This document shows, piece by piece, positions 59,974 to 64,000 of a stretch of 64,000 nucleotides of DNA. Position 1 is the stretch's first letter. Each line of letters starts with the position of its first letter. The stretch lies in the NCBI RefSeq assembly GCF_003384725.1, contig NZ_QNVV01000001.1, positions 1-64,000 on the forward strand. Reading direction: 5' to 3'. The DNA comes from Chryseobacterium pennipullorum. Its GTDB lineage: Bacteria > Bacteroidota > Bacteroidia > Flavobacteriales > Weeksellaceae. The translations under genes were made by a program, and so were the position numbers. The notes under the pieces were generated by a model, which was not told the origin of the DNA, did not search any database, and saw only the letters and a list, made by a program, of their open reading frames with translations.

Positions 59974-60486
59974 TTAATGATATTTTCTTTTGTTTTTTCG
60001 TTTTATTCTCGAATAATGGGTCTGTTTGCTTTTTTCATCTTCAGAAACAACGCTGATGTTTCCATCCACTTCCAAAATCGAGAGCTTTACATTTTCTATT
60101 TTTTCTATACCATGTTCTCTTATGGCTTCCTGTAATTCGTCCCACGTAATTTTCACCCGGTTCAAAGCGGTCTGATCTGCTACTCCATCTCTGATCAGGA
60201 CTACCGGTTCATCTTCCATAAAATTTTCAAATGAACGACTGGAGAACATAATTCTTTTTAGAATAAAGTTAGCTACAAACAAAACCAGTGCCGCAATAAT
60301 GCCACCCTGAAGAGACGTATCTGGCCCCACCATAGCATTCTGAACGGCATTTGAAATCAGCAGCAATAAAACAACATCTCCCGCGTTAAGTTGGGAGAGC
60401 TGATTCTTACCAAACAAACGGATGGCTATTACCATGAAAAGGTAAACGCAAAGGGAACGGATGACGACATTCAGAATAGGATCCAC
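59974..60486 (-). CDS. DUF421 membrane protein
   Basis: 170 residues. Three membrane helices (about 5-22, 35-55, 60-80) and a C-terminal domain with FMEDEPVVLIRDGV and LREHGIEKIENVKLSILEVDG, the known DUF421 (YetF/YcaP-like) layout. Function unclear. First gene of a pair with the GNAT gene. Confidence 0.85.
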   Translation of the reverse strand: MDPILNVVIRSLCVYLFMVIAIRLFGKNQLSQLNAGDVVLLLLISNAVQNAMVGPDTSLQGGIIAALVLFVANFILKRIMFSSRSFENFMEDEPVVLIRDGVADQTALNRVKITWDELQEAIREHGIEKIENVKLSILEVDGNISVVSEDEKSKQTHYSRIKRKNKRKYH

Positions 60487-60675: not shown

Positions 60676-61224
60676 ATGAAAAAAAAATTATTTTTATGCT
60701 TCAGCATCCTCCTGTTCTTTGTAAGCTGTAAAGAAAAAACAACGGAATGCAGTCTATCATCCAATACAGCGATCGGTTTGAAAATTGACGAACTTTATAC
60801 CCAATATGGAAAATCAAATGATGCTGTCTATAACCAGCCTATTCCGGATAACCTATTCTCCCCGTCCCTTAAAAAGGCTGTGGAGAACGCGATTAATGCA
60901 TCAAAGGCGGATATTGAAAAAGTAAAAAAAAGCGACCATCCTGACGAGAAGCCCCTGATTTTCGAAGGAGCAATTTTTTCAAGCTTATATGAAGGCTATT
61001 CCCGTTACAATATTCAGTCAATAAAAGTGAATGGCAACACCGCAGATGCTCTTGTCCATTTCGAATATGATATGGCTACTCCAAAAGTTGTATGGACCGA
61101 CACCCTTCGTCTGATTGAAGATCATAAACAATGGAGGATTGATAATATTACTTTCGATTCTATAGGAAATTCTAAAGACCTTAAAGGAGTTCTCACTGAT
61201 TTTGCACAAGGCTCCCACCCATAA
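60676..61224 (+). CDS. DUF3828-like lipoprotein
   Basis: 182 residues with a lipoprotein signal peptide (LLFFVSC). The pattern LYTQYGKSNDAVYNQPIPDNLFS and the end DTLRLIEDHKQWRIDNITFD resemble DUF3828. Function unknown; lipid-anchored. A hairpin terminator starts 3 bp after its stop codon. Confidence 0.75.
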   Translation: MKKKLFLCFSILLFFVSCKEKTTECSLSSNTAIGLKIDELYTQYGKSNDAVYNQPIPDNLFSPSLKKAVENAINASKADIEKVKKSDHPDEKPLIFEGAIFSSLYEGYSRYNIQSIKVNGNTADALVHFEYDMATPKVVWTDTLRLIEDHKQWRIDNITFDSIGNSKDLKGVLTDFAQGSHP

Positions 61225-61226
61225 AA

Positions 61227-61250
61227 AAAACCGCTTTTTCAAGCGGTTTT
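61227..61250. terminator. Terminator shared by the DUF3828 and peptide genes
   Basis: Perfect 10-bp stem aaaaccgctt (61227-61236) with aagcggtttt (61241-61250), loop tttc. The T run is longer on the minus strand, where it lies 7 bp beyond the stop of the small peptide gene. Confidence 0.87.
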
Positions 61251-61256
61251 CTTATT

Positions 61257-61391
61257 TTATGGACATTGAACGATTGGAATTTCACTGCAAAAAATCTTAT
61301 CTGCCCATTCGCAGTAGGTACAGTATTTTTTAGGCTCTCCTCCGGACACTGACTTCAAATCTGTTTTAGTCAGTTTTTTTAAATTTTTCAT
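61257..61391 (-). CDS. Double-glycine leader 'bacteriocin-like' peptide
   Basis: 44 residues, read by hand because it is shorter than usual ORF cut-offs. The first 18 residues (MKNLKKLTKTDLKSVSGG) form a classic double-glycine leader, as used by C39-peptidase ABC exporters. The remaining 26 residues form a Cys-rich core with Cys at 24, 27, 35 and 43. Chryseobacterium genomes encode many peptides with an MKNLKKL...GG start, annotated 'bacteriocin-like'. It has its own terminator and a minus-strand TAACTTTA (61421-61414) as a weak -7 element. No peptidase, modification or immunity gene is next to it. Confidence 0.82.
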   Translation of the reverse strand: MKNLKKLTKTDLKSVSGGEPKKYCTYCEWADKIFCSEIPIVQCP

Positions 61392-61544
61392 ATCGTTTTA
61401 ATTTATGGTTTGCTAAAGTTAAAACGAATTTCATACTACCTTATTATAAATTTACCCCTAAATATTTCATTATTTTCATCTATAATCCAAAAAATATGAT
61501 CCTCCTTGCAATACTTATATCCTCTTCATTAAATTTATTTTAAG

Positions 61545-61574
61545 CAAAAAAAGAATCTGCTTTCGCAAATTCTT
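61545..61574 (-). terminator. Terminator of uvrA
   Basis: Stem 61551-61560 with 61565-61574; on the minus-strand RNA it is fully paired with one G-U and a GAAA tetraloop, followed by T6-7. Confidence 0.85.
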
Positions 61575-61601
61575 TTCTATAATTAAATTGATATTCTATT
61601 A

Positions 61602-64000
61602 TTACAGCTCTCTCTTCAAAAACTTTCCGGTTAAACTCTTCTTAGACTTCACAATCTCTTCAGGTGTGCCCTGAGCTACAATCTGTCCACCATGTTTTCC
61701 ACCTTCCGGACCTACATCAATGATGTGGTCTGCCAGTTTGATGACATCCATATTGTGTTCGATGATAATAAAAGAGTTACCTAGTTCGACCAGCTGATTG
61801 ATGGCATCCATTAGGATTTTCACATCTTCAAAATGGAGACCAGTGGTAGGCTCATCAAGGATATAGAGCGTGTTTCCTGTTTGCCTTTTAGCGAGTTCTG
61901 TTGCCAGCTTGATACGCTGTGCTTCACCCCCTGAAAGGGTTGTTGACTGCTGTCCAAGCGTAATATATCCCAGCCCTACATCCTGCAGCGTTTTCACTTT
62001 CGCGAAAATTTTAGGAATTGGCTGGAAAAATTCCACCGCTTCATCAATTGTCATATCCAATACATCAGAGATGGACTTTCCTTTGTAACGGACTTCTAAG
62101 GTTTCTCTGTTGAATCGTTTTCCATTACAGGTTTCACAGTGAACATATACATCCGGAAGGAAATTCATTTCAATCACCTTCAATCCTCCACCCTGACAGG
62201 TTTCACATCTTCCGCCTTTTACATTGAAAGAGAATCTTCCGGGCTTGTATCCACGGATTTTACTTTCCGGAAGCTCAGCAAAAAGATTTCTGATGTCTGT
62301 AAACATTCCGGTGTAGGTAGCAGGATTGGAGCGGGGTGTTCTTCCGATCGGAGTCTGGTCTACATCTACAATTTTATCAATATTCTCCAGTCCTTCAATC
62401 TTTTTATAGGGTAAAGGTTCCTGAACGGCTCTGTAAAAATGTTTGTTCAGGATCGGATACAAGGTTCCGTTGATCAGAGAGGATTTTCCACTTCCGGAAA
62501 TTCCAGTTACCACAACGAGTTTCCCAAGAGGCACATCCAGTGTTACATTTTTCAGATTGTTTCCTGTAGCACCTTTAAGAAGAATATTTTTTCCGTTTCC
62601 TGCTCTTCTTTCTGCAGGTATTTCAATTTTCCTTTTGCCGTTGATATACTGTGCCGTGATTGTATCTGCTTTCAACAGATCTTTGGGTTTCCCTTGCCAC
62701 AATATTTCTCCACCGAATTTTCCAGCTTTCGGACCAATATCCAATACTTCATCAGCTTCCAGAATCATATCTTTGTCATGTTCCACGACCAATACTGAAT
62801 TTCCGATGTCTCTTAGATTCTTCAGGGAATGGATGAGTCTTTCGTTATCTCTCTGGTGAAGTCCGATACTTGGTTCATCCAGGATATACAATACATTCAC
62901 AAGTTGGGACCCAATTTGTGTCGCCAGACGGATCCTCTGCGATTCTCCGCCCGAGAGGGTCTTAGAGCTCCTGCTCAGACTCAGATAATCCAAACCTACA
63001 TCCAGCAGGAACTGAAGCCTGGTTTCAATTTCTTTCAGAATTTCGTGAGCGATGATTTTATTTTTTTCTGAGAACTTATCTCTGACGTCTGCCAGCCAGT
63101 CTTTTAGATCTGCTAAACTCAACGCATTAACCTCAGCAATATTTTTTCCGTCTATTTTAAAGCTCAGGCTTGAAGGCTGAAGACGTGTTCCATGGCATTC
63201 CGGACAGGTTTCTTCTGTCGTGAAGTGTCTTTCCAGAAGGATGGCTTCATAGGATTCTCTTTCATCAATGATTTCTTCCATGAAAGCAATAAGACCATCA
63301 AAACCAATCTTTATTTTCTTGGTAATTCCCGCGTATTTCAAATCCTTATTGAATTCTTTATGACAGCCATTGTAGATATATTCCAATGCTTCTTCCGGAA
63401 TATCCTTCATTGGAGTGGTTAACCCCAGTCCGAAAATTTCGAGAATATTTTTAATCTGTGCAAGAATCCATTTGTTGGATTTAATGTCTTCCAAAGGCAA
63501 TAAACCTCCCTGATTGATGGATAGCTTCGGGTTGTCTATAAAATAATCCGTATTGATCTTTTTGATAGTCCCCAATCCTTTACAGTCCGGGCAGCTTCCT
63601 TTGGGTGAATTGAACGAGAATGTATTCGGTTCGGGTAACGCTAAAGAGTGTCCTGTTTCTGCATCCATAAGGTTTTTGGAGAAATATTCAATCTCCGTAC
63701 TCCCCAGTTTCTGAATTCCAATGATTCCCTCGCCCATTTCCATGGCAGTACGCAATGATTTTTCCATTCTGCCTTCTGAAGCATTTTCACCGATAATCCA
63801 ACGGTCGATGACAATATCGATATCGTGGGTTTTATAACGGTCCAGTTTCAGATCATATTCAATATCCTGCAGCTCACCATCTATTCTTGCCTGCCCATAC
63901 CCTTTTTTAGCCATCTGTACGAAAAGCTCGTGATAGTGTCCCTTTCTGGAACGTACCACAGGGGCCAGAAGCATGATTTTCTCTTTTTTATAATTTTCTT
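61602..64000 (-). CDS. uvrA: Excinuclease ABC subunit A, 5' end cut by the window
   Basis: At least 799 codons visible; the frame stays open to the right edge (ENYKKEKIMLLAPVVRSRKGHYHELF), so the first about 140 residues are missing. A zinc-finger pair CPDCKGLGTIKK and CPECHGTRLQ, then the ABC signature LSGGESQRIRLATQIGS, the second Walker A GISGSGKSSLINGTL, CETCQGGGLKVIEMNFLPDVY, CETCNGKRFN and the second LSGGEAQRIKLATEL are in canonical order. It recognises DNA damage with UvrB in nucleotide excision repair. Cytoplasmic. Confidence 0.97.
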   Translation of the reverse strand, partial: ENYKKEKIMLLAPVVRSRKGHYHELFVQMAKKGYGQARIDGELQDIEYDLKLDRYKTHDIDIVIDRWIIGENASEGRMEKSLRTAMEMGEGIIGIQKLGSTEIEYFSKNLMDAETGHSLALPEPNTFSFNSPKGSCPDCKGLGTIKKINTDYFIDNPKLSINQGGLLPLEDIKSNKWILAQIKNILEIFGLGLTTPMKDIPEEALEYIYNGCHKEFNKDLKYAGITKKIKIGFDGLIAFMEEIIDERESYEAILLERHFTTEETCPECHGTRLQPSSLSFKIDGKNIAEVNALSLADLKDWLADVRDKFSEKNKIIAHEILKEIETRLQFLLDVGLDYLSLSRSSKTLSGGESQRIRLATQIGSQLVNVLYILDEPSIGLHQRDNERLIHSLKNLRDIGNSVLVVEHDKDMILEADEVLDIGPKAGKFGGEILWQGKPKDLLKADTITAQYINGKRKIEIPAERRAGNGKNILLKGATGNNLKNVTLDVPLGKLVVVTGISGSGKSSLINGTLYPILNKHFYRAVQEPLPYKKIEGLENIDKIVDVDQTPIGRTPRSNPATYTGMFTDIRNLFAELPESKIRGYKPGRFSFNVKGGRCETCQGGGLKVIEMNFLPDVYVHCETCNGKRFNRETLEVRYKGKSISDVLDMTIDEAVEFFQPIPKIFAKVKTLQDVGLGYITLGQQSTTLSGGEAQRIKLATELAKRQTGNTLYILDEPTTGLHFEDVKILMDAINQLVELGNSFIIIEHNMDVIKLADHIIDVGPEGGKHGGQIVAQGTPEEIVKSKKSLTGKFLKREL

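Follow-up and report, generated by a model that had tools for sequence, protein, structure and literature searches.

The small gene at 61257-61391 of the window (the whole 64,000-nucleotide stretch of Chryseobacterium pennipullorum DNA analysed here) probably encodes the precursor of a secreted, disulfide-bonded double-glycine peptide, which would be exported by a C39 transporter with an HlyD adaptor, oxidised by a VKOR protein and used in a role shared within the genus rather than as a diversifying bacteriocin. The parts of this reading that come directly from sequence are the leader class, the conservation of the frame and of the cysteines, the transcription signals, the fixed chromosomal place, the inheritance with the species and the co-occurrence with VKOR; expression, cleavage, the export route and the disulfides of the window peptide are what we infer. 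The gene and its surroundings comprise the following features.

59974-60486, minus strand: DUF421 membrane protein, downstream syntenic marker (PF04239, 60.8 bits; in 111 of 139 loci)
60676-61224, plus strand: convergent ORF, lipoprotein-like by eye (in 102 of 139 loci)
61224-61253, minus strand: terminator-like hairpin with a U-run directly 3' of the stop codon; it faces the convergent neighbour as well (-15.7 kcal/mol, z -5.7)
61257-61391, minus strand: peptide precursor gene, read as an ORF (matches in 140 of 173 genomes of the genus, uninterrupted in 137)
61260-61337, minus strand: core, residues 19-44, C-x2-C-x7-C-x7-C (Cys24, Cys35 and Cys43 in 139/139 copies, Cys27 in 138/139)
61338-61391, minus strand: double-glycine leader, residues 1-18 (NF047798, 33.4 bits; TIGR01847, 16.1 bits)
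61414-61421, minus strand: promoter-like TAACTTTA, beginning 30 bases upstream of the ATG
61442-61447, minus strand: conserved upstream ATAATA box
61466-61474, minus strand: upstream AATAATGAA box
61547-61578, minus strand: terminator-like hairpin separating uvrA from the peptide gene (-15.2 kcal/mol, z -4.8)
61602-63998, minus strand: uvrA, upstream syntenic neighbour on the same strand, reaching the window edge (from the ORF list)

The gene is an ORF of 44 codons running from ATG to TAA, and its 44-residue product, MKNLKKLTKTDLKSVSGGEPKKYCTYCEWADKIFCSEIPIVQCP, has cysteines at positions 24, 27, 35 and 43. The first-pass annotation had described a small ORF with a double-glycine leader and these four cysteines beside uvrA. 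The ORF is confirmed and does adjoin uvrA, but it is encoded 3' of uvrA, on the minus strand. The assignment of the leader to a Chryseobacterium type is also borne out, with residues 1-18 above the curated cut-off of NF047798 (leader_Chryseo; 33.4 versus 23.5 bits). As the leader passes this model, the kind of peptide is known; the model comprises the 18 leader residues only and says nothing on the core. The TIGR01847 bacteriocin signal model is passed marginally (cut-off 15.7 bits). No Pfam model is passed by the peptide, the core has no model of its own above cut-off in NCBIfam, Pfam or PADLOC, the PADLOC run found nothing and a PDB search with the peptide profile gave no match. AlphaFold modelling with 27 sequences (mean pLDDT 66, pTM 0.33) gave strands at residues 23-27 and 32-36; such a hairpin would place Cys24 opposite Cys35, a model too weak to fix the disulfide pattern. 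Cleavage by a C39 peptidase is predicted after Gly18.

Within the genus, the peptide is matched in 140 of 173 genomes (E 1e-4), and the 139 uninterrupted copies, from 137 genomes, are all 44 residues long. Every genome with an uninterrupted copy has a single one, except that G072 has two in tandem and G034 an additional one. The median pairwise dN/dS over the 139 copies (five other matches were dropped) is 0.09 for the leader and 0.12 for the core, calculated from 5579 and 3303 of 9591 pairs, respectively, with pairs of zero or saturated synonymous change left out; the mean pN/pS over all pairs is 0.15 and 0.22. The uninterrupted frame in 137 genomes and this purifying selection argue that the ORF is more than chance. 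In mean amino acid distance, the core (0.28) changes about twice as fast as both the leader (0.15) and DUF421 (0.14). The first-pass annotation had expected a conserved leader with a variable core; this is contradicted by the low dN/dS of the core, its constant length and its inheritance with the species, even though changes accumulate faster in the core than in the leader. Loss of the frame or frameshifts in relatives had been named as grounds against the gene. The frame is kept, and damage is confined to a few copies: a frameshift in G164, stops in G136 (an assembly 87% complete), a copy cut short close to a contig end in G003 and, counted within the 139, an ATT start with Cys27 changed to Tyr in G152. 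The copies in G164, G136 and G152 are what would be seen in a decaying, non-functional relic of an old double-glycine peptide, a reading made very improbable by the 139 uninterrupted copies, dN/dS of about 0.1 and the conserved upstream boxes and hairpin.

A profile search across the family (320 genomes, 33 genera) matched 166 genomes at E 1e-4, 157 of the same genus and 9 from four other genera. Outside the genus, the highest score is 40 bits over positions 1-39 (G247:C55:24536-24652), compared with at least 93 bits for uninterrupted copies; this match could be distantly related to the core or reflect the leader alone. Full matches among the named records listed are all Chryseobacterium, including C. 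phosphatilyticum, C. flavum, C. jejuense and C. indologenes. Three other peptides, picked by hand, served as comparators: a leader peptide from contig C21 has matches in at least 105/173 genomes (E 1e-4), many of them weak or paralogous, one from C8 has matches in 33/173 (E 1e-4), and the CCPGW family is found in 69/173, with one match each (E 1e-8). Of the four, the window peptide reaches the most genomes, but it is not alone in having a conserved core.

The gene appears to form a separate transcription unit, as had been claimed, with terminator-like hairpins on either side. The description of both as perfect terminators holds in part. Both fold better than 200 shuffles, from which the z values were calculated; only the hairpin at 61224-61253 is a perfect inverted repeat, that at 61547-61578 contains G.U pairs, and a consensus scan listed the former and not the latter. 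A script search found a hairpin with a T-run 3' of the stop in 134/139 copies, against 0-2/139 in five mononucleotide shuffles. Four upstream boxes are likewise far above mononucleotide shuffles, with counts that are descriptive and lean upward because the motifs were picked after viewing the alignment: TAnnTTTR at -36 to -24 in 111/139 copies (3-8 in shuffles), RTAATA at -62 to -48 in 124/139 (6-11), the pattern AATaRTGAA in 90/139 (0-1) and TTARAAC at a set distance in 109/139. The Bacteroidota -7 box has the consensus TAnnTTTG, which TAACTTTA resembles. The AATAATGAA box is possibly an operator or UP-like element; its pattern is present in 1/20 other distinct leader-peptide upstream stretches of the same genome.

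The place of the gene is fixed. In the fetched flanks, one or more of the three window neighbours stands correctly placed and oriented in 137/139 copies; for uvrA, a match of at least 80% lies upstream within the fetched 1.5 kb in 94/139. The convergent ORF at 60676-61224 had been called a DUF3828 gene; it has no Pfam match above cut-off, the best being Lumazine_bd_2 (20.9 versus 22.1 bits). The window neighbours include no modification enzyme and no linked receptor or regulator, and no sensor kinase adjoins the peptide gene. The second copy in G034 (G034:C4:221440-224571, L097) has diverged to 66% identity, its fetched flanks contain no counterpart of the three neighbours, and it possibly stems from a transfer between species.

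Presence of the gene follows relatedness. On a tree of one 510-base DUF421 marker, built by a quick method from 135 rows (107 with the peptide, 28 without), presence requires 5 changes compared with 25.8 when shuffled; the starred branches by themselves force 3 changes. The peptide is absent from one clade of 20 rows and another of 5. Core distances track DUF421 DNA distances (Mantel r 0.63, 0/999 permutations, 92 rows). The peptide gene is thus inherited with the species in a fixed place. DUF421 was found in 29 of the 33 genomes that lack the peptide, and in 19 of them the fetched locus also takes in the uvrA end. No peptide remnant stood out in 30 empty loci, where four matches at E 0.044 are noise, and none lies between DUF421 and the uvrA end in the 19 sites that span both. 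The 1.5 kb upstream of DUF421 in G021 (an assembly of about 370 contigs) gave no peptide match.

The first-pass annotation had placed the exporter elsewhere in the genome, and indeed contig C1, which holds the window, has no C39 match. The search for C39 exporters that it proposed gave three strong matches in the genome (C10, C14 and C18) and a fourth, with an internal stop, at C23. At C14 (L186:7702-13331; G000:C14:23701-29330), a VKOR-thioredoxin protein, a leader_Chryseo peptide, a C39 ABC transporter and an HlyD protein are clustered. The VKOR-thioredoxin protein has 503 residues, both of its domains score above their Pfam cut-offs, and it weakly matches DsbA-like chains in the PDB (E 0.007). 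The C10 locus (L187:10285-17868) carries a radical SAM protein, a 260-residue unknown protein and a C39 transporter and, by eye, a glycosyltransferase-like and a TonB-dependent receptor-like ORF. At C18 (L188:351-8924), a protein with a thiopep_ocin domain lies near a C39 transporter; two LanC-like ORFs and a luciferase-like ORF were noted by eye.

The VKOR protein is matched (E 1e-20) in 162/173 genomes, among them all 140 peptide-positive genomes; the peptide is found in 0/11 VKOR-negative genomes. The Fisher p of 2.6e-9 for this co-occurrence ignores relatedness, and the two are not independent, as absences of both share clades. The leader_Chryseo profile (E 1e-3) matches in 1/11 VKOR-negative genomes, in 19/22 that are VKOR-positive and peptide-negative, and in 7/7 selected genomes that carry the peptide, intact or damaged. 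The exceptions are G069, with four leader matches and no VKOR match, and G030, G088 and G137, with a VKOR match and no leader match. Leader peptides are encoded no more than a few hundred bases from the VKOR gene in G133, G111, G010 and G142. This profile search is better evidence than a text-pattern search for leader ORFs around the transporter or VKOR gene, which was positive at 10/30 loci, two of them from the C. pennipullorum genome itself. The C39 transporter alone was rejected as a marker, since 169/173 genomes match at E 1e-100, paralogues included. Overall, the leader class appears tied to a VKOR-coupled exporter; the C14 VKOR protein follows the class through the genomes examined and perhaps marks an exporter used in common. 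The likely exporter of the window peptide is the C14 C39 ABC transporter with its HlyD protein, an assignment not fixed because of the other C39 transporters (C10, C18 and, with the stop, C23). The genome has 28 leader_Chryseo places, the window peptide included. Unlike the window gene, which stands alone, those in the region L185 (G000:C9:11249-12997) form a run; their cores are cysteine-rich, and several contain a CC pair.

The link between the leader class and the VKOR-coupled exporter is the basis for the mechanism we propose, in which the precursor would give a secreted, disulfide-bonded peptide of 26 residues. A C39-peptidase ABC transporter would read the leader and cut after Gly18, the core would leave through the same transporter and the HlyD adaptor, and the VKOR-thioredoxin protein of the transporter cluster would oxidise the four cysteines to two disulfides. 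The first-pass annotation had suggested a disulfide-bonded or modified, bacteriocin-like peptide; disulfides are the likelier of the two given the VKOR-thioredoxin protein, whereas no modification enzyme lies beside the gene, and the conserved core does not suit a diversifying bacteriocin. It is improbable that the gene encodes a RiPP precursor whose cysteines receive thioether or lanthionine modifications from an enzyme of another locus: the radical SAM protein at C10 and the thiopep_ocin-domain protein at C18, each near a C39 transporter, favour this, but the window neighbours include no enzyme of this kind (at the other loci the check covered the three neighbours only), peptides of this leader class go with the VKOR protein, and no TIGR04149 match is reported for the window peptide.

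The role of the peptide is the weakest step of this reading. Most likely it acts outside the cell in a function shared within the genus, as a signal or a factor directed at the envelope, and less likely as a diversifying bacteriocin; a conserved, mostly single-copy, inherited core with no always-present neighbour speaks against an arms-race bacteriocin. As a more specific form, it is possible that the peptide is a genus-wide pheromone or shared factor, a disulfide-locked 26-residue signal encoded at a fixed place and released by a VKOR-coupled exporter that serves many leader_Chryseo peptides. A less likely reading is a classical, bacteroidetocin-like bacteriocin, which would be secreted with disulfides and kill relatives through a conserved target; such a target would hold the core constant. 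NCBI names the leader family 'bacteriocin-like protein', and the parts (double-glycine leader, four cysteines, thiol oxidoreductase, C39 ABC transporter) are those given for bacteroidetocins in the available text of PMC6671954. Against this, one inherited copy in most species of the genus would make most relatives producers in need of immunity, no neighbour is constant enough to provide it (the convergent ORF is found in 102/139 loci, a diverged one possibly being missed), and the window gene lies outside the transporter cluster. 

Chryseobacterium genomes hold many cysteine-rich peptides with double-glycine leaders that are called bacteriocin-like on the leader alone. As a conserved peptide that passes down with the species, in most genomes as a single copy, the window peptide is a good first test of whether they are weapons or signals. 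It differs from the usual weapon peptides of bacteria in being kept almost without change in most of the genus, a hint of some common function, for instance as a signal. That the leader class co-occurs with the VKOR-coupled exporter points to one cluster, open to knockout, that may govern export and disulfides for all peptides of the class.

ComC-type pheromones are short double-glycine-leader peptides exported by a C39 transporter; they are Gram-positive, lack the four cysteines and are encoded beside a sensor kinase. The window peptide shares the short double-glycine-leader form with them, without an adjoining sensor kinase. Among the open-access titles listed, there is no account of the leader_Chryseo class in Chryseobacterium or of the window core, and nothing relevant on VKOR with bacteriocins, C39 or peptide export. 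The available text of PMC8939145 concerns graspetides. Bacteroidetocins, class IIf bacteriocins with cores of 42 residues, kill Bacteroidales and have a double-glycine leader and, in the two tested, four cysteines; a thiol oxidoreductase and a C39 ABC transporter are encoded in the same cluster as the peptide, and the authors propose that the oxidoreductase forms the disulfides (available text of PMC6671954). The class IIf definition given there combines a leader with a GG motif, at least two cysteines and a size of 35-50 residues. With the predicted cleavage, the window peptide has such a leader and enough cysteines; its predicted core of 26 residues is below the range, if that figure refers to the mature peptide. 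The oxidoreductase and C39 transporter at C14 lie beside another leader peptide. The two systems, likened here by that description and not by sequence, thus have the same parts, but the window gene is detached from the others. The CCPGW putative bacteriocin (NF047792) has the same leader class as the window peptide and a conserved core. The window peptide scores 16.6 bits against its cut-off of 80, through the leader only (residues 1-19), and is found in about twice as many genomes, at different E-value limits. The leader class has already been named by NCBI, with CCPGW as a second member with a conserved core; what is new is the window core and its unusual pattern of conservation.
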